The position numbers and the translations under genes were made by a program. The notes beneath the pieces are model-generated. The model searched no databases, was not told the origin of the DNA, and was given only the letters and a program-made list of their open reading frames with translations. A stretch of DNA of 64,000 nucleotides. Origin: Actinomycetota bacterium (GTDB lineage Bacteria > Actinomycetota > Actinomycetes > Streptosporangiales > Streptosporangiaceae). Location: assembly GCA_027313705.1 (NCBI GenBank), contig DAHVDE010000118.1, forward strand, positions 158,979-222,978, given 5' to 3'. Shown here piece after piece: positions 1-27,911 of this stretch; the first letter of the stretch is position 1; every line of letters starts with the position of its first letter.

Positions 1-1465
1 CTATCTGGGCAAGCACATCCGCTACGAGGTTTCCGGCCGCGCGGTCAGCGACCTGCGCCACGATCTGCTCGGCCATGTTCTTTCCCTTGGCCAAGGCGAA
101 GCGGACGAGGCCTCCGGCGGGCACGCGCTGACCAGGCTCACCTCTGACTCGGCCGGGCTGCGCGGCGTCATCAACGGCGGGTTCGGCGAGATCGTCAATC
201 AGGCGCTGATGGCCGTCGTCCTGCTCGTGGTCTGCCTGGTGCTCGACGTCAGGATCACCTTGATCGCCTTGATCCCCATGATCGTGGCGGCCGTGCTGAG
301 CATGCGCATCCAGTTCCGCCTGGTCAGGGTCTTCATGGAGATCCGCGGCCACTTCAGCGCCCTACTGTCCGGCGTCGTCGAGTCGCTGGCCAACGCACCC
401 GTCATCAAGGCGTTCGGCCGCGAAGCGCACTCGGAGGAAAAACTCGGCGGCATCAACGAGGTCATGGCGCAGCGTCGCCGCGAGATGCGCATGCGGCATG
501 GTGCCTACAGCTCGGTGACCAGCTTCATCAACGCCCTGCCGATGCCGGTCACGCTCTGGTTCGGTGCCAGGGCCGTTTCAGGAGGGCAGATCAGCATCGG
601 AACGCTGGTCGCGCTCTTCGCGCTGGTGATGATGCTCCAGATGAGCGTGCACATGATCACCATGGATGCCAACGGCGTGCTGCACGGCATGGTCAACGGT
701 GACCGGCTGCTCCGCCTGATGAACGCTCCGCCCGCGCTCCTGGCCGGCGGCGAGGGCAGGCAAGCGCCGCCGCTGACCGGGCGGCTGAGCGCCGAGGGCA
801 TTCGCGCCGAGATCGGCGGCCGGGCCGTGCTGGACGGTGTCGACCTCCGGGTCGAACCTGGCGAGTTCGTCACGATCACCGGCCCGACCGGCGGCGGCAA
901 GTCGGTGCTGCTCCAGATCCTGGCCAGGCTCAGCGACCCGGCGGCGGGAAAGGTGCGCTACGACGACATCGACGCGGCCGACCTGGATCCGCAGTCGCTG
1001 CGGCAGCAGGTACTCTGCCTGCCCCAGCGGCAGTGGATCTTCCGCGGCACCGTAGGCGACAACATTGCCTTCGTCCGCCCGGACGCGAGCCAGAGCGAGA
1101 TTGGCGCGGCGGCGGCGCAGGCCGGCATCGGGCACCTGCCGCTTGACCGCGAGCTCTCCGGGGGCGCGGCCGATCTGTCGGCTGGCGAGCGGCAGCGCGT
1201 GGGCCTGGCCAGGGCGCTGCTCGTCTCCCCTGTGATCCTCCTGCTCGACAATCCCACGGCCAACCTGGACGGCGAGACCGAGGCGAGGTTCATCGACACG
1301 CTGCTCGAGCTGCGCAGCACGAGAACGCTGATCGTCGCCACGCAGCAGCCAGCACTCGCCAGGCACGCGGATCGCGTGGTGACACTCGTGGACGGCAGGA
1401 TCAGCGGGCCGGAAGCTACCGGCCTCATAGCGGCCATGAGCACGGGAAGGACAGCCAATGACTGA
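1..1465 (+). CDS. ABC exporter half-transporter (TMD+NBD), 5' truncated by window edge; degenerate NBD
   Basis: Frame open from base 2 (YLGKHIRYEVSGRAVSDLRHDLLGH...). Walker A GPTGGGKS, signature LSAGERQRVGLARALL, Walker B LLLDNPT (N in place of catalytic E). Confidence 0.93.
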   Translation, partial: YLGKHIRYEVSGRAVSDLRHDLLGHVLSLGQGEADEASGGHALTRLTSDSAGLRGVINGGFGEIVNQALMAVVLLVVCLVLDVRITLIALIPMIVAAVLSMRIQFRLVRVFMEIRGHFSALLSGVVESLANAPVIKAFGREAHSEEKLGGINEVMAQRRREMRMRHGAYSSVTSFINALPMPVTLWFGARAVSGGQISIGTLVALFALVMMLQMSVHMITMDANGVLHGMVNGDRLLRLMNAPPALLAGGEGRQAPPLTGRLSAEGIRAEIGGRAVLDGVDLRVEPGEFVTITGPTGGGKSVLLQILARLSDPAAGKVRYDDIDAADLDPQSLRQQVLCLPQRQWIFRGTVGDNIAFVRPDASQSEIGAAAAQAGIGHLPLDRELSGGAADLSAGERQRVGLARALLVSPVILLLDNPTANLDGETEARFIDTLLELRSTRTLIVATQQPALARHADRVVTLVDGRISGPEATGLIAAMSTGRTAND

Positions 1466-3371
1466 CGCGGCGCTGCCGCGGGTGACCCCGGTCGCCAGCG
1501 ACATCGGGATGACGCTGCGCACCATCGTCCGGCGTTTTGCTCCCTATCTTCGGCCGAACAAGGTCGTCTTCACCGCCGCTTTGCTGACGACGGTGCTCTA
1601 CACAGTGCTCGGCCTGTTCGAGATGTACACGATCATGATCGGGATCAGCTACATCGTGGTGGGGAACATGGTGGCGATCAGCGCGATCGCACTCCAGCTC
1701 GTCGCGATCGCGCTCGCGCTCAGCTTGCTCAGGCTGGTGAATACGGCCGTCACCGTCCGGCTCAACCAGCGCATGACGGTCGCGATCCGCCAGGACCTGA
1801 TCAGCCGCCTGCACCGGCTTTCGCTGAGCACGAACGGCGAGCAGATCAGCGGCGCCTGGATGTCCAAGGTACTGTTCGAGGCCGACAGGTTCCGCGACTT
1901 CCTGACCAGCCGCCTGCTCGGCATACTGCACAGCGTGGTCTGGTTCGTCGCGGTGGCGATCTTCCTGCTGAGCATCAGCCCCAAGGTCACCGCGCCGACG
2001 CTGGTGGCGCTGCCGCTGATGGCGTATATCGCATTCCGCCGGGTGCGCAGCATGTCAGGCGAATGGCAGCAGCAGCGCGAGGAGTGGGACCACGTCGTCG
2101 GCTACCTGACCCAGCGCCTCGAAGGCACGCCGGACATCCGCGCCTTCGGCAGGGAAAGAGCCGTGCTCGCCGAGTTCGACGCCCTCGCCGAGAGATACCG
2201 GAAAATCCACACCGGCCTCGCGCAGCGGCGCGTGAGCCTGGCGTCCTACCTTGACTTCTGCGTGTACATAGCCCTGGCGCTGCTGATCTTCTTCGGCGGC
2301 CTCCAGATCGAGCATCAGGGCACGCTCGGCAACAGCTTGTTCTTCAGGTTCGCGGCCGGCATGATGCCGATGACATGGGCGCTGCTCGGGGCCAACTCCA
2401 TGATGGCTGCGATGGGGATGGCCAGCGGCGCGGCACTGGCGGCCGGCACGCTCGCCGCCTTCGTGCTGTTCACCAAGCGCATGCTGAACCCGGTACGCGA
2501 CATTTCGCATCAGCTCGGCGAGTTCGCTGACCTGAAGGTCTCCACCGGCCGGATTCTCGACATCCTCGACCTGCCGCCAGAGAGCGTGCAAGGCGCGACC
2601 CTCGGCGCGGTATCAGGGCACATCGAATTCGAGCACGTCAGCTTTTCCTACGCCCAGGGCACGCCGGTGCTGCGTGACATCAGCCTGGAGATCTCGCCTG
2701 GCGAGCACCTCGCGATCGTCGGGCCGACCGGGGCGGGCAAGAGTTCGCTGGTCCAGCTTCTGGTGCGCTACTACGAGCCCGACAGCGGCACGATCAGGCT
2801 GGACGGTCACGACCTTGCCTCACTCGCGCCGCCGAGCGTCCGCGCCAACGTCATCGTGGTCGCGCAGGAAGCCCAGTTGTTCGCGGGCACGGTCATGGAG
2901 AACATCAGGTTCGCCCGGCCGGAGGCCAGCGACGACGAGGTGATCGCCGCCGCCAGGGCGGTCGGAGCTGACGAGATCATCTCGGCGCTGCCCAAGAGCT
3001 ATGCGACCCAGGCGGGCGACCGGGGCACCAGGCTGTCCGTCGGCGAGCGCCAGCTTGTCGCGCTGGCCCGCGCCATGCTCGCCGACCGCCAGATCGTGGT
3101 GCTCGATGAAGCCGTCTCGAGCGTCGACCCGGCCAGGCAGCTCGCGGTCCTTGCCGCGACCCGCAAGCTGCTGGCCGGACGGACCGCCATTGTCGTCGCG
3201 CACTGGCTTGACCTGGTGCGCGAGGCAGACCGGGTGGTCGTTCTCGACCATGGCCGGATCGTCCAGGCTGACACGCCAGCACGGCTGCTGGCCGGTCCTG
3301 GCCGGTTCACCGAGCTCTGGACGGCGCAGAACAGGCCCGCAGGCGGAGAAAGGACCACGTCCGATGGCTAA
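1458..3371 (+). CDS. ABC exporter half-transporter (TMD+NBD), canonical NBD
   Basis: Walker A GPTGAGKS, signature LSVGERQLVALARAML, Walker B IVVLDEA, H-loop VVAHW. Overlaps the preceding ABC gene. Confidence 0.95.
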   Translation: MTDAALPRVTPVASDIGMTLRTIVRRFAPYLRPNKVVFTAALLTTVLYTVLGLFEMYTIMIGISYIVVGNMVAISAIALQLVAIALALSLLRLVNTAVTVRLNQRMTVAIRQDLISRLHRLSLSTNGEQISGAWMSKVLFEADRFRDFLTSRLLGILHSVVWFVAVAIFLLSISPKVTAPTLVALPLMAYIAFRRVRSMSGEWQQQREEWDHVVGYLTQRLEGTPDIRAFGRERAVLAEFDALAERYRKIHTGLAQRRVSLASYLDFCVYIALALLIFFGGLQIEHQGTLGNSLFFRFAAGMMPMTWALLGANSMMAAMGMASGAALAAGTLAAFVLFTKRMLNPVRDISHQLGEFADLKVSTGRILDILDLPPESVQGATLGAVSGHIEFEHVSFSYAQGTPVLRDISLEISPGEHLAIVGPTGAGKSSLVQLLVRYYEPDSGTIRLDGHDLASLAPPSVRANVIVVAQEAQLFAGTVMENIRFARPEASDDEVIAAARAVGADEIISALPKSYATQAGDRGTRLSVGERQLVALARAMLADRQIVVLDEAVSSVDPARQLAVLAATRKLLAGRTAIVVAHWLDLVREADRVVVLDHGRIVQADTPARLLAGPGRFTELWTAQNRPAGGERTTSDG

Positions 3372-17093: not shown

Positions 17094-17122
17094 TTGACAT
17101 GTGGGAATATTGTCCGTAACAT
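17094..17122 (+). promoter_or_regulatory. Near-consensus sigma70/HrdB-type promoter
   Basis: TTGACA (17094-17099), 17-nt spacer, TAACAT (17117-17122); 43 nt before the 17166 ATG. Confidence 0.65.
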
Positions 17123-17165
17123 CAGAAACTGGGTGATTCGGCCGCATCGGATTGCTTGCTCATAG

Positions 17166-19019
17166 ATGGGGACCATTTTGTCTGTTTCGGCACTAGTTGC
17201 TACTGATCTCATGGAAATTTCCGGTATAGAAAAGGATCTGCGGCGACGCCTGGATATGGTGTCCGGGAACGACGATTCAGCAGTCCTGCTCGGCCTGGTG
17301 GCGGCCGGTGAGGCGGGCCAGGAAAAGATCAGCGAATTGGCTTCGGGCGAGGGTGCCCACCTCGATCTGATCAGTTACGGCCTGCCACCGGAGAAGGTTA
17401 GCCGGTTCCAGCAGCTCTGGTATCACTTCAAGGTGCCCTTCGCTGAGGCATCTCTGGTCTGGTGGTATCTGTTCTGCCTGAACCTCGGGCGGGGCGGCGA
17501 CCTCGGTAACGCGCTGGCGCAACTGGATCAGCAGCTTGCCGCCCTGGGCCCGGAGCCAGCCACCCGGCTCAGCGACCTTGCCGACCTGCTCGGCCTGTCA
17601 CCGGAGGCGGTCATCGTCACCGACGACGAGGTCGGCGACACCGGCGCGCTGGCGGTCGCAGTCAAGCGCCACGTGCCGCTGATCTGGACTGACGACATCC
17701 AGGTGACGGCCGCCGCAAGCAACGGCGAGAGCACCGCTGCCGACGAGGGCACCAGCCGCTCCTGGTGGCTCGGGCCTTCGGCCGACCTGAGCGAATCGGA
17801 GGCCAGGACTCGAGCGCGCTGGTCAGACCTGCCTGCCGACGAGCGGGACGAACTGCTGGCCATGCTCGAGGAGAAAGTTACCTCGATCGAGCGGATGAGG
17901 TTCCGGTTCAGTGAATCTATCACCGACAATAAGGGCTCGGCCCGGATCGTAGGCGAGTGCCGAGCGCAAGATCCGGCTAGCTGGCCCTATCCGCACCTGG
18001 TACTCGCGACGGCCCTGTGGTGCTGGTACGTGGGTGGCTTCACTTTGCAGGAACTCAACCAGTCATTTCTTTCGCTGTCCTCGCTCACTCACTTCCTGGT
18101 GAGGCGGATGAGGCAGTACGAGATCACCTGCGGCCTGCCGGTCACCAGAATCGAGGGGCTCGACCCAGTAGCCGTGGCCGGCGAGTTCGCGAAGGCAAGG
18201 ATCAGGCTCGAGCAGACCAGCGTCCGGTGCATGCATTTCGACGGGAGCAACTGGGAGCGCCGCGAGTTCCTCGTGCCGAAGGCGGCCATGGACCGGCTGC
18301 ACGAGATCCCTGACAGCCTGCGCGAGATTCTCGGGAGGTGGATCGGCGTGGAATTTCCCGGACCGACCGGGACGCTCGAGGCCTGGGATCAGTTTCTCGA
18401 ACTGGCGCTTGCGGCCGGGCACACGCCTACCAGGGTGATGCAGGCGCTGACCACGCACGCCGCGAACGCCAGCGACCTCCCTCTCGACATGGCGGTGTTC
18501 ACCGCGCCCATGGGCTGCAAGCTGACCGAGCCGTGGACACTCGTTTACAGTGACATCTTCTGCTATACCGCGTTCAGGGACGGGTTCCAGCCCGCTGTGC
18601 ACGGGATTCCCGGTGATCTCGTCAGCATCCAGAACATCCAGGGTCAGCGGCAGCGATTCAACGCGGTCAAGAAGTCCCAGAACTACGCCCCGGTGCGCAA
18701 ACTCGCGCCGCAGGGCTTCAACCTCCCCGACATCTCGATCGCCGAAGACGCTCACCACGCCGGCCACTTCGCGGCCGGCGTCCGGCTCGCCTGCCGCGTT
18801 CCGATCACCATCTTCTACCGTGACATGCATTGGAACGGCATTTCCGACGTGCGCCTCAATCGGGTCGAGTACCGGCGGGATAACCGTTTCATGCCACGCG
18901 ACGTGCTACTGGCCAGCCGGTACGCGCAATGGGTGAAGGGCGTGGCTGACGCCACGTACCGCCGCGATCTGAGATTCGACGCCAAATGGGGAGCTAGGGT
19001 ACAAGACCTCACGTTGTGA
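17166..19019 (+). CDS. Hypothetical 617-aa protein, first gene of putative biosynthetic operon
   Basis: Long ORF at good spacing from a promoter and from the following Rieske gene. No family recognised. His-rich patch EDAHHAGHFAAG, then ITIFYRDMHWNGISDVRLNR. Confidence 0.9.
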   Translation: MGTILSVSALVATDLMEISGIEKDLRRRLDMVSGNDDSAVLLGLVAAGEAGQEKISELASGEGAHLDLISYGLPPEKVSRFQQLWYHFKVPFAEASLVWWYLFCLNLGRGGDLGNALAQLDQQLAALGPEPATRLSDLADLLGLSPEAVIVTDDEVGDTGALAVAVKRHVPLIWTDDIQVTAAASNGESTAADEGTSRSWWLGPSADLSESEARTRARWSDLPADERDELLAMLEEKVTSIERMRFRFSESITDNKGSARIVGECRAQDPASWPYPHLVLATALWCWYVGGFTLQELNQSFLSLSSLTHFLVRRMRQYEITCGLPVTRIEGLDPVAVAGEFAKARIRLEQTSVRCMHFDGSNWERREFLVPKAAMDRLHEIPDSLREILGRWIGVEFPGPTGTLEAWDQFLELALAAGHTPTRVMQALTTHAANASDLPLDMAVFTAPMGCKLTEPWTLVYSDIFCYTAFRDGFQPAVHGIPGDLVSIQNIQGQRQRFNAVKKSQNYAPVRKLAPQGFNLPDISIAEDAHHAGHFAAGVRLACRVPITIFYRDMHWNGISDVRLNRVEYRRDNRFMPRDVLLASRYAQWVKGVADATYRRDLRFDAKWGARVQDLTL

Positions 19020-19048
19020 CGACGACACCGACAAAGGTATGAACTTTC

Positions 19049-19339
19049 ATGCATTCTTCTGCTATACGACCGAGCCCTGTGCCATCTGATCCGGCTGTGA
19101 TCGAACCGGAAGGTCAGGACTACATCTCAGTCCGGCTTCCCCAACTCCATGTCCGGATACCGGCCTACTGCCCCCACAAGGGCGCGCCGTTATCACGCGG
19201 AACGGTGATCGGTTCCTTCCTTGAGTGCCCGTGGCACGGCGCGCTCTTCGACCTGCGGACAGGGCACCGCCTGCGCGGGCCCGACTGCGACGACCTCGAG
19301 GTGACATGCGTGCAACCGGCGGAGGGACCAGCCCAGTGA
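19049..19339 (+). CDS. Rieske [2Fe-2S] ferredoxin-like protein
   Basis: Rieske motifs YCPHKGAPLSRG and ECPWHGALFDL. Confidence 0.9.
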   Translation: MHSSAIRPSPVPSDPAVIEPEGQDYISVRLPQLHVRIPAYCPHKGAPLSRGTVIGSFLECPWHGALFDLRTGHRLRGPDCDDLEVTCVQPAEGPAQ

Positions 19340-19944
19340 ACCAGGCAAAAACGACGCTCAAGGCGCCGCAAGATGACTTGGTCATCGCCACGTGGGCACA
19401 GGCCGTCATCGGCGAAGACGCGACCTCCCTTGCCGTATCGCACCAGAAGCGACCAGTTCGGATGCACGGGGCTGACTCGACCGGTCTGGGCCTGGTCACC
19501 AACCAGACGATCGGCGCTGACCTTCTCCGCCTCCCCCGTGGCGCCGGCTTCCCGCCCCATACCCATCCCGGGCACCACGTGCTTGTCATTGTCGGCGGGA
19601 GAGGCACGATTACCTATGCCGGCCGGATCCACCCGACTCAGGCGGGCGAGATCTACTTGGTGGAAGGCTCGGTCGCGCACGCGGTCGGTGCCATTACAGA
19701 CCACGTCATCCTCGCGGTCGGGGCGCCGCACATGCCGCTCGACTCACATGAGCGCATGGCGGTCGTGCCCTATCAGGAGGTGCTGAGCGAGGTCGGTGAC
19801 CTGCACTGCCTTATCTGTGCCCGCCGCACGAGCCCGCCGCTGATGCTGCACAACACCGACTGTCCCCATTGCCCTTGCCAGCAGTGCACGCTGGGAGATG
19901 CCTGCGTTGCCGAGGTGGAGACGGCTGGCCAACTTGACCGCTGA
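19336..19944 (+). CDS. Cupin-domain protein with C-terminal Cys-rich tail
   Basis: GTG start overlapping the Rieske stop. Cupin motif PPHTHPGHHVLVIVGGRGTITYAG...GEIYLVEGSVAHAV; tail LHCLICARR...DCPHCPCQQCTLGDAC. Confidence 0.88.
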   Translation: MNQAKTTLKAPQDDLVIATWAQAVIGEDATSLAVSHQKRPVRMHGADSTGLGLVTNQTIGADLLRLPRGAGFPPHTHPGHHVLVIVGGRGTITYAGRIHPTQAGEIYLVEGSVAHAVGAITDHVILAVGAPHMPLDSHERMAVVPYQEVLSEVGDLHCLICARRTSPPLMLHNTDCPHCPCQQCTLGDACVAEVETAGQLDR

Positions 19945-22108
19945 TCCGCTTCTCGGCCCGGTCACCGAAGCGCTTGACGGCTTGCCTGAAGGCGCGCGGG
20001 TAGTGGTGTGCGGTCGTTCCGGGCCTGACTTCGCGCGTGTCATTACCCGCTGCCTGGACCGGGCGCTGACCGCCGTCCCAGTGGATCCCCAGGCCGGCGA
20101 GGCGCGGCTCACGGAGATTACGGGCCGGGTCGCCGCCAGCGTGGTCATCGACGGCAGGGGCGGGCACTGGTCTGCGCGAACCGGGCCATGCGCCCGCGCG
20201 GACCTCGGTGACCGGTGCCCCACCGACCTTGAGCGGCAGCCTGGCCTGAGATTCGTGATCTTCACCTCTGGCTCGACCGGTGTTCCTAAGGGAGTCATGC
20301 TCGGCTGGGACAGCGTGCGCGGCAACGCGGAAAAAGTGACCGGCGTGGTCGGCATAGACCCGGCCCGGCCGCACGCGACCTGCCTGCCCCTGTTTCACGT
20401 GAACGCCCTGCTGATGTCCCTGGTCGGCACCAGGATCACCGGGACTCCGCTAGTGATCTGCGACCAGTTTTCCCCGCACGAGTACTTCCGCCAGATCGGG
20501 CAGGCCCTCGCCGCGACCGCCGCGGTGGTCCCGGCACTCCTGCACCGGATCGTCGAAGCCAGGCCGCCCTGGCCAGACTCGCTGGAATGCCTGATCACGG
20601 CCGCCGCCCCGTTAGAGCGGGACCTAGCCCAACGGTTCTACCGCGCGTACGGCCCGCGCTTGCGGCAGGGATACGGCCAGAGCGAGGCGGTGAATTTCAG
20701 CTTCATGATGCCACTGCTGGACGCCGCCGGCTTCCGCGAACACTACCTGCGCAGGCACCCGCCTGTCGGGATTGCGCTACCGGCGACCGAACTGGCGATC
20801 GACGACGGCGAGGTCGTGCTGCGCACGCCCGATATCATGCGAGGCTACTGGGCTGATCCGGTGACCACCGCCAAAGTGCTCACCCCTGACGGGTGGCTAA
20901 GAACCGGTGACCTCGGCGAACTGCGTGATGAGTTCCTTGTCTTGCGAGGCCGGCGCGATGAGGTAATCAACCGGGGCGGGGTGAAGGTGTATCCGCTCGA
21001 CATAGAGCGCCAGTGGCGACAAGACGGGCTTGCCGGCCACGGTGCGGCCGTACCGGTGCAGGCCGGGTCCGAAGGGCAAGACATCGGACTGGTGCTGGCC
21101 GGCGGGTCGCTGCTCTGGGCACGCAGTCTCGGCGCAGCCGGCCGGACCGCGCCTTTGGCCGCCGAGACGGGTGGGCTGCTCATTACCCCGACCGGAAAGC
21201 TGAAGCGCAAGGAGATGGGCAGGCGGCTCACCGGACGGCGCGAAGACCCGGCTAGATACCAGGAACTCCTCGCCTACGCTGCCCAGGTCGCGGCGTCCAT
21301 TACTGCCAGCCAGACCCGCCCGCAGGGCGCGCAGGCCACTAGGCTCTGGGCCCAGGCAGCCTGGCTAGCCGGATCGCAGGCGGCGAAGCGCGGATCGCAA
21401 GCCGGATCGGCTGCCCGCAGTGCCGCCCACGACGCACTCGACCTGCTCGCTGGCTACTGGCCGACGATTGCGGTGGCGGCCGGCGACGGCGGCGACATGA
21501 TGCGTCAGCGACCTGGGCTGTGGCGACGGCTCATGACCGAATGGCCCATGGGCAGCTACGCCGAACTGGCATGCGCAGTACTTTCTGCTCGCGAACTCCT
21601 GCGCGGCCCGGTGCTCGAGGTCGGGTCGGGAGTCGGCAATACGACCGGCCTGATCGCACCGCTCGTCGGAGACGACTTCACCTGGTCGGACGGAAACCCC
21701 TGGCTCGTCGCCCGCGGGAGGTGGCCGGGTCAGGGTGTGGTCTTCGATTTTGACCAGTTGGCCCCAGATGGCCTCGGCCCCTTCGCGACCATCGTGGCCA
21801 CCAACGCGCTGCATTGCGCGGCCGACAAGGGGGCCAGCCTGGCCAGGCTGCGGTCGCTGCTTCGCCCTGGAGGCACGCTCGTGCTCGCGGAAGGCTCGAA
21901 CCCGACGACGCCCGACGGGCTGCCATGGGCGCTTGACTACCTGTTCTGCGCCTTCGGCGGATGGTGGGACCGCACCGGGTTCCTGACCCGGTGGGAGTGG
22001 CTGCGCCTGCTGACCGATGCAGGATTCGACCGACTCGGCTACAGCGTGCTGCGGGCTGGCCGGCACGATCTTGGCGGCGTGGTCTGGGGCAGCAACGGTG
22101 ACGGCTGA
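19898..22108 (+). CDS. ANL-superfamily AMP-dependent ligase fused to a C-terminal SAM-dependent methyltransferase
   Basis: FTSGSTGVPKGV (A3), YGQSEAVN (A5), RTGDLGEL (A7), GRRDEVINRGGVKVYPLDIE (A8), PTGKLKRKEM (A10); then VLEVGSGVGNTTGLIAPLV...LRPGGTLVLAEGS. Confidence 0.92.
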   Translation: MPALPRWRRLANLTADPLLGPVTEALDGLPEGARVVVCGRSGPDFARVITRCLDRALTAVPVDPQAGEARLTEITGRVAASVVIDGRGGHWSARTGPCARADLGDRCPTDLERQPGLRFVIFTSGSTGVPKGVMLGWDSVRGNAEKVTGVVGIDPARPHATCLPLFHVNALLMSLVGTRITGTPLVICDQFSPHEYFRQIGQALAATAAVVPALLHRIVEARPPWPDSLECLITAAAPLERDLAQRFYRAYGPRLRQGYGQSEAVNFSFMMPLLDAAGFREHYLRRHPPVGIALPATELAIDDGEVVLRTPDIMRGYWADPVTTAKVLTPDGWLRTGDLGELRDEFLVLRGRRDEVINRGGVKVYPLDIERQWRQDGLAGHGAAVPVQAGSEGQDIGLVLAGGSLLWARSLGAAGRTAPLAAETGGLLITPTGKLKRKEMGRRLTGRREDPARYQELLAYAAQVAASITASQTRPQGAQATRLWAQAAWLAGSQAAKRGSQAGSAARSAAHDALDLLAGYWPTIAVAAGDGGDMMRQRPGLWRRLMTEWPMGSYAELACAVLSARELLRGPVLEVGSGVGNTTGLIAPLVGDDFTWSDGNPWLVARGRWPGQGVVFDFDQLAPDGLGPFATIVATNALHCAADKGASLARLRSLLRPGGTLVLAEGSNPTTPDGLPWALDYLFCAFGGWWDRTGFLTRWEWLRLLTDAGFDRLGYSVLRAGRHDLGGVVWGSNGDG

Positions 22109-22529
22109 GCCGTCAGGTCCCGTGCCTCATCAACCTATGTTCGACGGCTGTTTCGGCTGCGCGCCCGCTCATCCTGGCGGCCTGCGGGTCAGGAAGACCG
22201 GCGATGCTTTCGAGTTCACGATCAGGCCCGGCCACCAGGGCACCCCTGGCCGGGCGCACGGTGGCGTGCTCGCGGCCGCCCTTGACGAGGCAATGGGCAT
22301 GGTGGCGTGGTCCCTTGGCCGACCTTGCGCGACCGCGCGGCTTGAGGTCGACTTCCTGATACCGGTACCACTCAACGGCGCTGTCCGAATCACCGCAAGG
22401 TGCACTGGCCAGGACGGGCGCAAGCTGACCCTAATGGCAGAGGCACGGCTGAACGACCCGTCCGGCCCGGTCGCGGCCAGGGCTGCCGCCTTGTACATCC
22501 AGGCCAGGCTCCCCGCTGAGCCAGGCTAG
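22098..22529 (+). CDS. PaaI-like hotdog-fold thioesterase
   Basis: GTG start overlapping upstream gene; CFGCAPAHPGGLRV...GTPGRAHGGVLAAALDEAMG. Confidence 0.88.
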   Translation: MTAEPSGPVPHQPMFDGCFGCAPAHPGGLRVRKTGDAFEFTIRPGHQGTPGRAHGGVLAAALDEAMGMVAWSLGRPCATARLEVDFLIPVPLNGAVRITARCTGQDGRKLTLMAEARLNDPSGPVAARAAALYIQARLPAEPG

Positions 22530-22557
22530 CAGACGGGCACCGCCCCGGCCGGGCCGT

Positions 22558-22592
22558 AACTGGACCGCTCAGCAGAAGCCTAACTGGAGCAT
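22558..22592. promoter_or_regulatory. Candidate MocR operator, site A
   Basis: AACTGGACC (22558-22566), N17, CTGGAGCAT (22584-22592). Same arrangement as 26592-26626. Confidence 0.6.
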
Positions 22593-22625
22593 TAGACCGG
22601 GCCAGTCAACCCTTACCTTGATCAG

Positions 22626-23906
22626 ATGCATACGGCTGAGCGGGCACCGCACGCACCTCCGCCACCGGCACCCCGCTGGGCACGGGTCATCGTCCCCGCC
22701 GACTACACCCTGTTCCATGTCGGGTATCTCGGCGCCCTTCCGCTGCTGCCTGTTATCTTGCGGTCGCTGCTCGGATCAGGCGACTCGCTGGCGGTCGGGG
22801 CCGTGCTGCTCGTGTACAACGCGGCGATTGGGGTTGCCTGCCTGTTCGCGGCGCCACTCATCGCGCGGGTCGACTCAAGAAACGCCATGGCCGCCGGGCT
22901 CGCGTGTTCCGCCGCAGGGATAGGCGTGCTTCCTTTCGCTCATTCCGCGCTCGCGGCCGGAGCAGCGCTAGCCGTCGCCGGAACCGGCATGAGCGTACAC
23001 GGAGTCCTCGCTCGGTCAATGGTGGCCAAGGCGGTGCCCGCCGATGCGGGCCGTCATCGCATCTATTCATTGATCCAGATCGGCGTTAACGTCGCGGCGG
23101 CGATCGGGCCGCTGATCGCGACCAGCGTGTACGCCATTTCCGGCGCCACGGCCGTGCTCTGGGGCGCCTGCGCGTTCTACCTGGCCGGCATGACCTTGGT
23201 CCTGACCTGCATCCCGGCCGGATTCCCTGTAGCTCAAAGGGAAAGTCGCTGGCCGCTGACCAGGGAAATGATCAGGCAACTGCTGACCCCGGCCAACGCC
23301 AGGACAAGCATCGCGGCCATGGCCGGCTATTTTCTCTATGCTCAGTTCTTTTCGGCAATCGCACTGCTTATCACGCTTCATGTCACGAAGGGACCGATCC
23401 AGGGCATGCTGTTCCTTGAGAACGCGGTCCTGATCGTCGCCTGCCAAGCGCCCGCATCGGCCGTGGTCCAGCGCCGGCTCAACCGGGGAGCGCATCCGTC
23501 GGCGGTGTTGCTGACCGGGATGGCCATGTTCGCGATCGCGCTGCTGCTGCTCGGAGTGCTCCTCGCCGTGCACGTGCCGGTCTTCACGGCCGCACTCGCG
23601 GCTATCGCCCTGTTCTCGCTTGCGGAGACGGTCTACACCCCGACCGTGAACACGGCTTTCGCCCAGATTCCTGCCTCGTCTCCAGTGGAGTCGTTCAATG
23701 CACAGCAGTTGCTTATTACCGTCGGTCAGTCAGCCGGCACGCTGGTCGGTACGAGCGTCTTCCTCGCCGTCTCCGCAGCCGGCCACGGACCGGCATACTG
23801 GCTACTGGTGGGAATTTCCGGCCTGTTCGCCGTAGGTGCTACCGCCGCCACCGCCATTCCTGTGCGCAGCCTGTTCCGTCCTTCGAGAGCCCGGAGAACA
23901 TCATGA
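22626..23906 (+). CDS. MFS transporter (probable product exporter)
   Basis: About 12 hydrophobic segments; followed by ATGA overlap with the ATP-grasp gene. Confidence 0.9.
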   Translation: MHTAERAPHAPPPPAPRWARVIVPADYTLFHVGYLGALPLLPVILRSLLGSGDSLAVGAVLLVYNAAIGVACLFAAPLIARVDSRNAMAAGLACSAAGIGVLPFAHSALAAGAALAVAGTGMSVHGVLARSMVAKAVPADAGRHRIYSLIQIGVNVAAAIGPLIATSVYAISGATAVLWGACAFYLAGMTLVLTCIPAGFPVAQRESRWPLTREMIRQLLTPANARTSIAAMAGYFLYAQFFSAIALLITLHVTKGPIQGMLFLENAVLIVACQAPASAVVQRRLNRGAHPSAVLLTGMAMFAIALLLLGVLLAVHVPVFTAALAAIALFSLAETVYTPTVNTAFAQIPASSPVESFNAQQLLITVGQSAGTLVGTSVFLAVSAAGHGPAYWLLVGISGLFAVGATAATAIPVRSLFRPSRARRTS

Positions 23907-25162
23907 CCGTCACCAGGCCTGTGCTCATGATGGGCTGGAACCAGCACTGGCTGACCGCACTGGACGAACTGCTGCCTGACGGCAGTGTCGTAGTCGTCGA
24001 GGAACCTGACGTCTACCAGGGCAAGCACATCGCCGCCCGCTGGTCAGGACATCCAGTAGTCAGGGAAGTCCTTTTCGCCGAATACCAGCAGACCGACCGT
24101 TTCCTCGACGTAGTGACCCGCCAGCACGCCCGCGAGCCGGTCCGGTGCGTCCTGCCCGCGCTTGAGTACTCGGTGGAGGCGGCCGCGCAGGCTGCACTCG
24201 AACTCGGCTTGCCAGGGGCCGGAGCAGTCGCCGCCCGCATCTTCCGCGACAAAATCGCCCAGATCACTACCTGCCAGCGGGCTGGCATCGCCGTCCCGCG
24301 ATTCGCTGAGATCAACGACGCCGCCGGCGTCGCCGCCTTCGGCGGCGACGAACCGTTCGTGCTCAAGCCCGCGAACCGACAGGCCAGCCTCGGGGTCGTA
24401 ATCGTGCGTCCGGGTGACGACCCAGAACAGACATGGCAGGAGTGCGTCGGCGCCGACGAAGGCCCGCAACTCGCCCGCCGCGACCTCCGGTGGCGGTACC
24501 TGGCAGAAGAATTCGTAGCCGGACCTGAGTACAGTGTCGAGGCACTGGTCACCAGCGGCGAGATCGTGTTTGCCAACGTGACAGCCAAACGCGTTCACCC
24601 AGGGCGCTACCCCGTCGAGGCAGGTCATGTCGTTCCGGCGCCCGCCGGTCCTGGCGTCGCCGAACTGCCTGCCCTGATGCAGGAACTGGTCCGTGCGACC
24701 GGGTTCGGCACCGGACTGCTGCACGGCGAGTGGATCATCAGCGATGGGACACCGGTGTTCGTGGAGTGTGCCGCCCGCCCGGCCGGAGACTGGATCTTCG
24801 ACCTGATCGACCTGGTGACCGGCGTCAATTTGTACGACGCCGCCGTCCGCGCGCTCGGTGGGCAGGACCCCTTGACACGCCGCAGGCACACCGGCTGTAC
24901 GGCGGCGGCCGCCGTACGGTTCGGGTTTCCCGCCGAGCCTGGCACGGTCACCGACGTGTCCGGCGTCGATGCGGCCAGCAGCGCGCCTGGTGTGGTCCGG
25001 GTACCGCATGTGCCGGCGGCCGGGGATGAGATCAGGTCGCTCGGATCGTCCTGGGGTCGGCTGGCAGCCGTGATCGCGACAGGCATGGACCAGGCTGATG
25101 CCGAGGCGGCGGCAGTCGCCAGCCTTGACAAGATCACCGTGACGATGCGGCCTTACAGGTAA
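23903..25162 (+). CDS. ATP-grasp carboxylate-amine ligase (L-amino-acid-ligase-like)
   Basis: FVLKPANRQASLGVVIV, YLAEEFVAGPEYSVEALV, GLLHGEWIISDGTPVFVECAARPAGDWI. Confidence 0.9.
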   Translation: MTVTRPVLMMGWNQHWLTALDELLPDGSVVVVEEPDVYQGKHIAARWSGHPVVREVLFAEYQQTDRFLDVVTRQHAREPVRCVLPALEYSVEAAAQAALELGLPGAGAVAARIFRDKIAQITTCQRAGIAVPRFAEINDAAGVAAFGGDEPFVLKPANRQASLGVVIVRPGDDPEQTWQECVGADEGPQLARRDLRWRYLAEEFVAGPEYSVEALVTSGEIVFANVTAKRVHPGRYPVEAGHVVPAPAGPGVAELPALMQELVRATGFGTGLLHGEWIISDGTPVFVECAARPAGDWIFDLIDLVTGVNLYDAAVRALGGQDPLTRRRHTGCTAAAAVRFGFPAEPGTVTDVSGVDAASSAPGVVRVPHVPAAGDEIRSLGSSWGRLAAVIATGMDQADAEAAAVASLDKITVTMRPYR

Positions 25163-25212
25163 GTTGCCAGGTCATGACGGCTGACCGCGGCCGGTTCGTG
25201 CAGGCGGTTCAG

Positions 25213-26613
25213 TCAGCCGCACGCTTCGGCGATGACCGCCGCCAGTTCGCTGATGCAGGACCGGAACGCGTTGGCAGGCGGGCGGCCATAGCCGACGACG
25301 ATCGCGTGCGGATGGGCAGGGTCGGGTTCGTGCCAGTACTCCTCAATCGTGTGCAACAACAGCCCGCGCCGCCTGGCGGCGGCGAGTACCGCCCGTGCCT
25401 GTGTCTCGCCTGGCAGCGTCACCAGGGCATGCATTCCGGCTGCAATCCCGGTGACCGCTGCCTGCGGCACATCCCTGGCCAGCACCCGCGCCAGGTAGTC
25501 CCTTCGCCCCCGGTATTCGACTCGCATGCGCCGGACATGCCGATCAAGGGCGCCCGAGTTGATGAAGTCGGCTAGGACAAGCTGCTCAAGTGCGGCGTTG
25601 CCCCGGTCGAGCCACTCCCTGATACCAACCGCCAGCGGGCGGATGGCTGCCGGAAGCGCGATCCAGCCGAGGCGCAGCGCGGGAGCGAGTGTCTTGCTGG
25701 CCGTGCCCACGTAGAGGACCCGGTCTGCGGCCATTTGCTGAAGGGACCCGACCGGCCGCCGGTCGAACCTGAACTCGCCGTCGTAGTCATCTTCGATGAT
25801 GAGCGCATCGCGCTGGCGTGCCCACTCAGTCAGCGCGTTCCGCCGGGCTGGGGACAACGTGACGCCAAGCGGGTACTGGTGCGCCGGCGTCACGATCACC
25901 GCTTGCACGTCGAGCGATTTCAGCGCCGCGACCTGAACGCCTTCGCCGTCGCAGGGCACACCGGCGATCCGGAGGCCGGAACTGGCGACCAGTTCCCTGT
26001 ATCTCGGCGCGCACGGGTCCTCCATCGCCACGGCGCGCGCACCGCTGAGCCGCAGTACCTCGCAGATCAGCCGAAGCGCCTGGGTGAATCCCGAGCAGAT
26101 CATGAGTCCTTCCGGGCTGGCCAGTACGCCGCGAGCGCGGCCGAGGTAGGAGGTCAGTGCCCGGCGAAGCTCGATCGTGCCCTGGCTGCTGCCGTAGCCG
26201 AAGGCGTCGGGGGGCAGTCGCTGGAACACAGAACGGGTGGTGCGCACCCACGCCTGACGGGGAAAGCTGGAACTGTCTGGCGATCCTGGCCGCAAGTCCC
26301 AGCGCGCTGCCCGGCCGGGTTCGGCCGCAGCCGGCGTCTCCGCAGCCGGCGGCACCCAGATCACCTCGCTGACGGCCCCAGGCCGCAACGTGATGTAACC
26401 TTCCGCCGCAAGCTGCGCGTACGCTCCCGCGATGGTGCCACGGGCGACGCCGAGGTCGTGGGCAAGCGCTCGCGTCGACGGCAGGCGGGCGTTGACGACG
26501 AGCCGGCCGTCGCAAATGGCCTGCCGGATGGCTCGCTCGACATCACGGCCGAGTGAACCCCTGTGGCTCAGCTCCACGCACAGGTCCACCGAACTGGACC
26601 ATTCATCTGCCAT
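25213..26613 (-). CDS. MocR/PdxR-type regulator (GntR wHTH + aminotransferase fold); alternative GTG start at 26589
   Basis: RLPSTRALAHDLGVARGTIAGAYAQLAAEGY; AT-I-like domain with DALIIEDDYDGEFR and YVGTASKTLAPALRLGW. Confidence 0.93.
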   Translation of the reverse strand: MADEWSSSVDLCVELSHRGSLGRDVERAIRQAICDGRLVVNARLPSTRALAHDLGVARGTIAGAYAQLAAEGYITLRPGAVSEVIWVPPAAETPAAAEPGRAARWDLRPGSPDSSSFPRQAWVRTTRSVFQRLPPDAFGYGSSQGTIELRRALTSYLGRARGVLASPEGLMICSGFTQALRLICEVLRLSGARAVAMEDPCAPRYRELVASSGLRIAGVPCDGEGVQVAALKSLDVQAVIVTPAHQYPLGVTLSPARRNALTEWARQRDALIIEDDYDGEFRFDRRPVGSLQQMAADRVLYVGTASKTLAPALRLGWIALPAAIRPLAVGIREWLDRGNAALEQLVLADFINSGALDRHVRRMRVEYRGRRDYLARVLARDVPQAAVTGIAAGMHALVTLPGETQARAVLAAARRRGLLLHTIEEYWHEPDPAHPHAIVVGYGRPPANAFRSCISELAAVIAEACG

Positions 26614-26636
26614 CGATCTGGAGCATACATTGGACC
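26592..26636. promoter_or_regulatory. Candidate MocR operator, site B (divergent promoter)
   Basis: AACTGGACC (26592-26600), N17, CTGGAGCAT (26618-26626), plus extra TGGACC (26631-26636). Confidence 0.6.
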
Positions 26637-26660
26637 TCCTGCACTCGTAGCGTGAGCGTC

Positions 26661-27911
26661 ATGACAAAGACCACACTGCTCATCGCGGGCAGTACCGTCA
26701 TCACTAGCTGGGGTCGTGATCAGATCCGCAGGCTCAGTGAACAGGCCAGGCGCCGCGACGTCTGGCTCATCGGCGCAGACTCGCCGCAGAACCTGGCGAA
26801 GGCCTCGCAGGACGAACTTGCCCAGGTCGACGAGATCCTGCCGCTCGACGTCAACGACCCGCAGGCATGCCTTGACTGGGCGAAGTCGGCTGCCCCTGCA
26901 GGCCTCAGCGCGGTGCTGACTATCCGTGAGCTCGCGGTCTACTCGACCGCGCTCATGGCCGGGCAACTCGGGCTGGCCGGGAATGACCCGGAGGCGGTCT
27001 TGCGCATCAGGAACAAGGATCTGTGCCGGACCAGGCTGCGGGAAGCCGGCTTTCGCCAGCCAGTCACGGCACTGGGACGGACCGGCGACGATGCACGCCT
27101 CTTCATGAAGGAGCACGGACCTGGTCCATGGATCATCAAGCCGCGGGACGGCTTGGCCAGCCTGGGCGTCTCGCTAATCCGGGGCGATGACGACATAGAG
27201 CCTGCACTGGCCAGGCTGGCGATGACGCCGCCTGGCGCATTCGGCTCGCTGTCATCGGACGCGCCGTTCCTGATCGAGACGTTCGTGGCGGGAGCGGAGT
27301 ACTCCGCCGAGGGCGTCATGGTCGGGGGAACCGCCAGGGTACTCGCGCTCACGCAGAAGAGGACCGCTGCCGGCTTCATCGAGACAGGGCACCGCGTCCC
27401 CGCCTCGCTGAGCACGGCCGTGGAAGATGCGGCCACGCGAGCAGTGACCGGGGCACTGCGTGAGGCCGGGATTACCAGAGGTATTTTCCACGTCGAGTTC
27501 TGGGTGAACGACGACGGCATCGTGATCGGCGAACTACATGACCGGCCGGGCGGAGACTACATTCACCTGCTGGTCGAATACGCTCGCCTGGGTCTTGAAC
27601 TCTACGGCATGCTCGTCGACGACCTGCTCGGCCGTGACCCTGGCCCGGTGCCAGCTCTCACCCGCGCAGCGGCGGCCGAGTTCCTGGTCTGCCCGCCCGG
27701 CCACCTCACGGCCGTCTCCGGGTGGAACGAGCTAAAGACCGACCCGGCCGTACTGACCTGCGACCTGAGCATCGCTCCGGGCGACTCGGTCGCGCCGGTG
27801 ACCGATTCGTGGGGGCGGCAGGGTCTGTTTGTCGTCGGCGGCAACAGTCCCGAGGAGGTAGATTCGCTCGCCAGCCGGCTGCGCGATGGCGTCGCCTTCA
27901 CCGTCGCCTAG
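26661..27911 (+). CDS. ATP-grasp carboxylate-amine ligase (second paralogue)
   Basis: WIIKPRDGLASLGVSLI, FLIETFVAGAEYSAEGVMV, FHVEFWVNDDGIVIGELHDRPGGDYI. Confidence 0.9.
   Translation: MTKTTLLIAGSTVITSWGRDQIRRLSEQARRRDVWLIGADSPQNLAKASQDELAQVDEILPLDVNDPQACLDWAKSAAPAGLSAVLTIRELAVYSTALMAGQLGLAGNDPEAVLRIRNKDLCRTRLREAGFRQPVTALGRTGDDARLFMKEHGPGPWIIKPRDGLASLGVSLIRGDDDIEPALARLAMTPPGAFGSLSSDAPFLIETFVAGAEYSAEGVMVGGTARVLALTQKRTAAGFIETGHRVPASLSTAVEDAATRAVTGALREAGITRGIFHVEFWVNDDGIVIGELHDRPGGDYIHLLVEYARLGLELYGMLVDDLLGRDPGPVPALTRAAAAEFLVCPPGHLTAVSGWNELKTDPAVLTCDLSIAPGDSVAPVTDSWGRQGLFVVGGNSPEEVDSLASRLRDGVAFTVA

Follow-up and report, generated by a model that had tools for sequence, protein, structure and literature searches.

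Does a small bacterial gene cluster with no polyketide synthase (PKS), nonribosomal peptide synthetase (NRPS) or carrier protein combine two unusual chemistries, one making a sulfonamide and the other an N–N bond? Both N–N bonds and natural sulfonamides are rare, and the enzymes that make them have come to light only recently. The genes that raise this question (Table 1) lie in a 64,000-nucleotide stretch of actinomycete DNA, hereafter the window, and appear to constitute a small, previously undescribed cluster of a soil actinomycete. The sequence-only reading had listed nine genes there; each is a genuine open frame and has the domains predicted for it, and their content bears out its view of a compact biosynthetic cluster lacking PKS, NRPS and carrier protein. 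Two of the starts did not stand. Judged by the starts of homologues, the cupin gene begins at a GTG near 19336 rather than at 19225, which is inside the Rieske frame, and the second ATP-grasp gene begins near 26652 rather than at 26553. The thioesterase probably starts near 22137, its open frame reaching upstream to 22017. With moderate confidence, we read the locus as a cryptic cluster whose product is small and peptide-like, bearing a sulfonamide derived from cysteine and, probably, an N–N (hydrazine or hydrazide) unit as well.

Table 1. Genes of the cluster, with positions in the window and the basis of each assignment.
Feature	Position	Strand	Basis
KinJ/FzmP-family heme-enzyme homologue, 617 aa, divergent clade A	17166..19019	+	profile comparisons, residues
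Small Rieske [2Fe-2S] ferredoxin, candidate electron donor	19049..19339	+	PF00355 E 1.9e-10; CPH...CPWH motif intact
SbzM-like cupin (sulfonamide synthase type), conserved Cys-rich tail	19336..19944	+	9UG7 E 2.5e-64, about 60% identity
ANL adenylating domain + methyltransferase domain fusion (ANL-MT; PKS C-MT-like)	19898..22108	+	PF00501 E 3e-34; Methyltransf_23
Hotdog (4HBT) thioesterase (TE)	22137..22529	+	PF03061 E 2e-11
MFS transporter, probable exporter	22626..23906	+	PF07690 (MFS_1)
ATP-grasp L-amino-acid ligase LAL1	23903..25162	+	PF18603 E 7e-19; BL00235 3VOT E 5e-15
MocR/PdxR-type regulator	25213..26613	-	GntR + aminotransferase I fold
ATP-grasp L-amino-acid ligase LAL2	26652..27911	+	PF18603 E 3e-18; BL00235 E 2e-15

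The 617-residue protein had been left as unknown. It has no Pfam or NCBIfam match, no homologue among solved structures and, with the window sequence as query, none on plasmids, but profile comparison makes it recognisable as a relative of the heme hydrazine synthases KinJ, FzmP and NegJ of kinamycin, fosfazinomycin and negamycin biosynthesis (PMC12154649), to which it is homologous over about 360 residues at only 16–22% identity. An HMM built from kin-type proteins alone matched all eight members of its clade, clade A (E 1e-7 to 1e-13), the window protein among them at E 1.6e-8; against 2000 shuffles and about 470 decoys it matched nothing but one true KinJ fragment. Profile–profile comparison with KinJ-type proteins (hhalign) scored 99.1%, with E 7.9e-19 over 363 columns. 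The kin-type loci were recognised through cassette synteny, the AlpH match and residue spacing rather than from a deposited KinJ sequence. Their cassettes encode a ferredoxin, an amidase, GS-like and GNAT proteins, an ADSL-like lyase, flavin hydroxylases and an O-methyltransferase whose best solved match is AlpH (E 6e-110); these genes, the AlpH-like one included, mark them as real kin cassettes. The eight published KinJ residues (PMC12154649) are all present, at the exact spacing, in 14 of the kin-type relatives.

Of the eight published residues the window protein retains six, and every clade-A member keeps the His that ligates the heme, the Asn501 equivalent, the Cys and all three substrate arginines. 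In the window protein, C466, R495, N499, H534, R544 and R563 correspond to KinJ C468, R497, N501, H541, R551 and R570. Four positions that are invariant in 21 canonical KinJ-like proteins are changed in clade A, namely K356 (to R), M498 (to Q, M or L), W503 (to V) and H504 (to K, in 8/8 members); the window protein has R365, Q496, V501 and K502 there. We therefore class it with a divergent clade of the family and not as a canonical KinJ. The clade A branch, at 3.6 changes per site, is a deep split. M498 and H504 are among the residues reported to be important near the KinJ heme (PMC12154649), so that nitrite-dependent N–N formation may be changed or lost in clade A; judging from sequence, we infer that the clade may form N–N bonds. 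A structure model of the 617-residue protein was fair (pLDDT 77) and gave weak Foldseek matches (E at least 0.37), mostly to phytochrome GAF domains. A resemblance to these domains has been reported for KinJ too (PMC12154649); because the matches are weak, they are only suggestive.

The plain label of cupin overlooked the protein's likeness to 9UG7, a solved structure deposited as the sulfonamide synthase SbzM. The cupin His positions and the Cys-rich tail (C-x2-C...H...C-x-H-C-x-C-x2-C) are conserved in 9UG7 and in all eight cupins linked to clade A. Sequence search alone had already found 9UG7; the structure model of the cupin was poor (pLDDT 49). SbzM converts L-cysteine to 2-sulfamoylacetaldehyde, and as it makes the aldehyde alone (PMC6331615), its partner SbzJ is not needed for this step. 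SbzJ-like aldehyde dehydrogenase genes occur at five of the eight clade-A loci, with none in the window cluster or on the contig of its counterpart in the metagenome-assembled genome G425. The altemicidin and SB-203208 clusters (PMC6331615; 9UG7) share with the window the cupin with its His motif and tail, whereas the window is without their aldehyde dehydrogenase, azaindane, tRNA-synthetase-like and GNAT-transfer genes and adds the KinJ-like enzyme. SbzM homologues clustered with ATP-grasp enzymes are depicted in Fig. 7D of a review (PMC9113183), and the window cluster is probably of this general type; hydrazine chemistry is nowhere mentioned in the text of that review, and its passages on those clusters describe no KinJ-like or Rieske gene.

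The Rieske ferredoxin and the SbzM-like cupin adjoin the clade-A gene in all eight genomes and are found at none of the 21 canonical KinJ-like loci. A 4Fe-4S ferredoxin is clustered at six of the eight clade-A loci but is absent from the window cluster and from G425; a relative, 54% identical, is encoded elsewhere in the window's genome. Dedicated 4Fe-4S/7Fe ferredoxins occur in about 55% of KinJ neighbourhoods, and FzmP and NegJ clusters often have none (PMC12154649), so that a clustered ferredoxin is not strictly defining for the KinJ type. Like many KinJ clusters (PMC12154649), in which ATP-grasps are common, the window has ATP-grasp ligases, a methyltransferase and an MFS exporter. Unlike the KinJ, FzmP and NegJ systems, it has a Rieske protein in place of the clustered 4Fe-4S ferredoxin, adds the cupin, and is without the hydrazino cassette (GS-like, amidase, GNAT and lyase genes). 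Negamycin biosynthesis follows the same logic, in which an N–N-forming enzyme works with methylation and ATP-grasp ligation, but the window cluster genes include the cupin and none for beta-lysine; moreover, negamycin is made with N-methylation, whereas the window methyltransferase is joined to an ANL domain and is of a PKS C-methyltransferase-like type. Among the known systems compared here, the cluster matched no characterised one.

As to the source of nitrite, no nitrosuccinate lyase scored above the curated cut-off in the window's genome. A DUF3050 oxidase in place of CreDE was considered and rejected: DUF3050 occurs in 9 of 27 genomes and nitrosuccinate lyase in 3 of the 27, never both, and this mutual exclusion is not significant (hypergeometric, about 0.28). 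Azoxy (VlmA/VlmO/VlmB) pathways, considered because some relatives have AurF-like and aminotransferase genes, were likewise set aside, the azodyrecin paper offering no matching cassette.

ATP-grasp (PF13535) and LAL_C2 (PF18603) domains score above cut-off in both LAL1 and LAL2. With the MFS_1 domain of the transporter, this agrees with the earlier prediction of putative amide-forming ligases and an exporter. The proposed analogy to BacD/BacE holds only at a distance: BacD shares the ATP-grasp fold with LAL_C2 and the dipeptide-ligase type, as does BL00235, the nearest solved relative of both ligases, but LAL2 matches BacD at E 1e-9 and BL00235 more closely (E 2e-15). The best likeness of the methyltransferase domain is to polyketide C-methyltransferase domains (CurJ, E 2e-7), and a methylated acid, as previously suggested, is a possibility.

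The complete gene set was seen in only two genomes, the second being G425, with 72–81% identity. One G425 contig carries the 617-residue gene, Rieske, cupin, ANL-MT (77%), TE (72%) and MFS N-terminus in the same order; another carries an MFS remnant followed by LAL1 (73%), and a third has MocR (81%) divergent from LAL2 (81%) across an identical 38-bp gap. Both operons are therefore co-conserved elsewhere, so that the lack of co-conservation which the sequence-only reading named as grounds for its rejection is not borne out, and the retention of genes, order and pairing indicates more than a chance arrangement. Relatives of LAL1 (46% identical) and LAL2 (48–50%) both lie beside one KinJ homologue in another genome, G591, and two LAL2-type copies (54 and 57%) flank the cassette in Streptomyces olivoverticillatus.

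The analysis establishes homology, retention of key residues, a shared gene order and co-conservation; beyond these, a pathway can be proposed. The cupin, by analogy with SbzM, would oxidise, decarboxylate and rearrange L-cysteine to 2-sulfamoylacetaldehyde. The KinJ-like enzyme would reduce nitrite and join its nitrogen to an amine, reactions demonstrated for KinJ, FzmP and NegJ (PMC12154649) and extrapolated here to a divergent clade; its electrons may come from the Rieske protein, from a ferredoxin encoded elsewhere, or both. From their domains, the ANL-methyltransferase would activate and methylate an acid and the hotdog protein would hydrolyse a thioester. LAL1 and LAL2 would attach free amino acids through amide or hydrazide bonds, the MFS protein would export the product, and MocR may control LAL2, from which it is divergently transcribed, and perhaps the other genes too. 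It is distinctly unlikely, though conceivable, that the clade-A enzyme, working with the Rieske protein and a reshaped heme pocket, takes the cupin-made sulfonamide, or an intermediate bearing it, as nitrogen acceptor; this would give an S–N–N linkage (a sulfonyl hydrazide or derived diazo or hydrazone), a group from an enzyme pair not described before.

SbzM-like cupins are also found without KinJ, so that the sulfonamide and N–N chemistries need not share one molecule. The product might be a sulfonamide peptide with no N–N bond. In that case the KinJ-like enzyme would have taken on a new role, perhaps that of a heme reductase or oxygenase supplied with electrons by the Rieske protein, its substrate being the sulfonamide or an intermediate derived from cysteine. 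The depth of the clade A split, the four replaced positions and the strict coupling to cupin and Rieske instead of the usual KinJ partners fit such a change. We nevertheless consider it somewhat unlikely, as the heme-ligand His, the Cys, the substrate arginines and Asn501 persist throughout the clade, six of its eight loci still have the 4Fe-4S ferredoxin, and a KinJ homologue that keeps W503 and H504 (L016) likewise has relatives of LAL1 and LAL2 beside it.

The sequence-only reading saw a generic amide or dipeptide cluster, which was right as to compact amide-forming machinery but missed the KinJ-family enzyme and the SbzM-like cupin. It is these two, rather than the ATP-grasp/MFS pair, whose likely functions suggest the identity of the product. 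A bacilysin-like dipeptide amide, built from free amino acids and an adenylated, methylated acid, with only routine tailoring done by the 617-residue protein and the cupin, would suit two LAL_C2 ligases and an exporter without carrier protein or NRPS; it is improbable given that those two proteins are specific relatives of N–N and N–S bond-forming enzymes and that BacD is a distant relative. Nor do we give much credence to two independent pathways lying side by side, one from the KinJ/Rieske/cupin/ANL-MT operon and the other from the MFS, ligase and MocR genes, with separate products. The 97-bp gap between TE and MFS and the divergent transcription of MocR and LAL2 would allow this, but G425 keeps the TE–MFS adjacency, LAL2-type ligases flank the S. 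olivoverticillatus cassette and both ligase types accompany the KinJ homologue in G591, making it highly improbable. The reading with a sulfonamide and a probable N–N unit is thus the one we prefer.

The component families are known; what appears new against the accessible literature is their combination, together with the Rieske partner and the changes in the heme pocket. Because culturable relatives (S. olivoverticillatus CECT 3266, Actinomadura barringtoniae GKU 128 and Actinomadura sp. KC216) carry the cassette, the hypothesis is testable now. Cluster families of this kind could escape genome miners that rely on PKS or NRPS rules. Clade A members are natural active-site variants, with Lys at H504 and a Rieske instead of a 4Fe-4S donor, for probing nitrite reduction and amine choice by KinJ. 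The product may be a peptide of a new type, rich in nitrogen and sulfur, and a cluster family in which a KinJ-like heme enzyme is always accompanied by a sulfonamide synthase would offer a compact source of new natural products rich in both elements.

The nine genes of the cluster, in a window drawn from a 5.3-Mb actinomycete draft genome, carry the domains that the sequence-only reading had named. Genes 1–5 overlap or are closely packed, the MFS gene overlaps that of the first ATP-grasp L-amino-acid ligase (LAL1) by 4 bp, and the MocR gene and that of the second ligase (LAL2) are oriented divergently. The 617-aa protein matched no family in Pfam or NCBIfam and was absent from four other draft genomes of the same genus.

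Locations of the cluster and related loci (G, genome, with G000 that of the window; C, contig; L, retrieved locus); scan loci are the four found with the 617-aa protein in 85,462 species genomes
Feature	Location	Strand	Identity to 617-aa protein
Window	G000:C68:158979-222978
Nine-gene cluster	window 17166-27911
617-aa protein	window 17166-19019	+
Rieske protein	window 19049-19339	+
Cupin	window 19336-19944	+
Upstream ATP-grasp cluster	G000:C68:153.6-158.5 kb (L103:13594-18476), into window 2-3371
Second KinJ homologue, canonical type	G000:C10:6061-7995 (L064; also L104)
Scan locus	G425 contig (FK1.bin32 MAG)
Scan locus	Streptomyces olivoverticillatus		50%
Two scan loci	Actinomadura sp. KC216, A. 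barringtoniae		38%

A single-sequence search of same-family genomes returned one close homologue of the 617-aa protein (G425, 73%), one at ~40% (G503) and several weak C-terminal matches; profile searches gained ~20 more. The homologues form two deep groups, clade A (eight members, the window's included) and the other 21; the branch between them, at 3.6 changes per site, is fully supported. Most of the 21 share one conserved neighbourhood encoding a ferredoxin, glutamine-synthetase-like, amidase, GNAT and adenylosuccinate-lyase-like proteins, several FAD-binding aromatic hydroxylases, in some cases DUF3050, and an O-methyltransferase-like protein that matches solved AlpH, the diazo-installing enzyme of kinamycin (E 6e-110). 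These are kinamycin-type cassettes, in which the homologue gene adjoining the ferredoxin holds the KinJ position. This assignment was checked independently against the eight KinJ residues named in a 2025 preprint (C468, R497, M498, N501, H504, H541, R551 and R570; PMC12154649): all of them are found, spaced exactly as published, in 14 sequences outside clade A, two of which also share the numbering.

KinJ, FzmP and NegJ are reported to contain heme and to work with a ferredoxin, reducing nitrite and linking its nitrogen to an amino acid (PMC12154649). A profile built from kin-type sequences alone recovered every clade-A member and matched no unrelated decoys, and comparison of the clade-A and kin-type profiles gave E 8e-19 over 363 columns; judged by sequence, the 617-aa protein is KinJ-like. 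Foldseek matches to its AlphaFold model were weak and mostly to phytochrome GAF domains, which KinJ itself is reported to resemble distantly (PMC12154649), a parallel that is no more than suggestive. All eight clade-A proteins keep counterparts of C468, R497, N501, R551 and R570 and of H541, the heme ligand. K356, M498, W503 and H504 are invariant in the other 21 and replaced in clade A, which has R, Q/M/L, V and K, respectively, so that the 617-aa protein is placed on a divergent branch of the family rather than among the canonical KinJ proteins. By analogy, clade-A proteins may form N–N bonds.

The sole solved relative of the cupin is 9UG7 (E 2.5e-64, ~60% identity, Cys-rich tail included), titled 'sulfonamide synthase SbzM from Actinokineospora mzabensis', and its sequence marks the cupin as SbzM-like. 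In the altemicidin/SB-203208 pathway, SbzM converts L-cysteine to 2-sulfamoylacetaldehyde, which is oxidised by the aldehyde dehydrogenase SbzJ (PMC6331615). An aldehyde dehydrogenase gene directly follows the cupin gene in five of the eight clade-A loci, and is absent there from the window and G425. Among 348 order-level genomes, the seven cupins scoring >330 bits fell in exactly the seven clade-A genomes, a ranking that is not independent because the profile was partly built from them. SbzM-like cupins also occur without KinJ, on a Pseudonocardia plasmid beside a type I PKS and, in L120 and L121 (G588 and G476), with an aldehyde dehydrogenase, a PLP aminotransferase-fold protein and a TauD dioxygenase, possibly as altemicidin-like clusters; a 2021 review (PMC9113183) had already recorded SbzM homologues in clusters containing PKS, NRPS and ATP-grasp genes. 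The degenerate locus L119 (G699:C18), in which an SbzM-like cupin frame with a stop is fused to a condensation-domain-like fragment, probably arose by decay of an Actinomadura-type cluster.

Rieske and SbzM-like cupin genes accompany the homologue in 8/8 clade-A loci versus 0/21 others, a coupling that counts as few independent events because the eight loci form one clade. A 4Fe-4S ferredoxin is present in six of the eight and missing from the window and G425; a 54% relative is encoded elsewhere in the window's genome. The G425 operon runs from the 617-aa gene through the thioesterase to the first 54 MFS residues at a contig end, a second contig begins within the MFS gene and continues with LAL1, and a third carries MocR divergent from LAL2. 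In G591, the KinJ homologue is followed by LAL1-type (46%), third and LAL2-type (48%) ligases and an MFS-like gene, and the S. olivoverticillatus cassette has two LAL2-type ligases (54 and 57%) and a methyltransferase around it. These neighbours tie the ligases to the N–N-type enzyme, in agreement with the preprint, where ATP-grasps are common in KinJ clusters (PMC12154649). Five clade-A loci (L013, L066, L068, L070 and L074) additionally encode an AurF-like diiron oxygenase, a GNAT protein, an adenylating enzyme, a carrier protein and a class III aminotransferase. Their logic resembles that of the dob diazo pathway, in which AurF-like Dob3 converts a hydrazone to a diazo group, making them candidate sulfonamide/diazo hybrids.

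In the proposed pathway, the cupin would convert cysteine to a sulfamoyl aldehyde, and the KinJ-like enzyme, with the Rieske protein or a ferredoxin, would carry out nitrite-dependent N–N formation, as relatives of each do. From their domains, the adenylating-methyltransferase fusion, whose methyltransferase domain is nearest to PKS C-methyltransferases, would activate and methylate an acid, the thioesterase would hydrolyse a thioester, LAL1 and LAL2 would form amide or hydrazide linkages, and the remaining genes would serve export and regulation. The window's genome held no nitrosuccinate lyase above the cut-off and no DUF3050. DUF3050, a heme-oxygenase-like family mentioned by name in a study of the mangotoxin mgo operon (PMC3298696), has a solved relative (9VWB) and is found repeatedly next to KinJ homologues (L029, L066, L017-L019, L067 and L073); seven of its ten copies among 27 KinJ-bearing genomes lie within ~10 kb of the KinJ gene, and it could bear on nitrite supply.

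The window's genome has ~ten ATP-grasp ligase-type genes. A separate cluster just upstream holds three ligase-like ones with a further gene interspersed, as well as an ABC exporter. Near the second KinJ homologue are genes for two carbamoyltransferases, a TruD-like pseudouridine synthase and an EPSP-synthase-like protein, together with an adenylation/NRPS-like gene; this set may represent a C-nucleoside-type cluster whose product contains an N–N bond.

Neither the enzyme families nor the general concept of cryptic KinJ clusters and cryptic SbzM clusters is new. Neither 'Rieske' nor 'cupin' occurs in the preprint's main text (PMC12154649), and hydrazine goes unmentioned in the text of the review (PMC9113183); the fixed combination of KinJ-like protein, Rieske protein and SbzM-like cupin, like the altered heme pocket, thus appears new relative to those texts.
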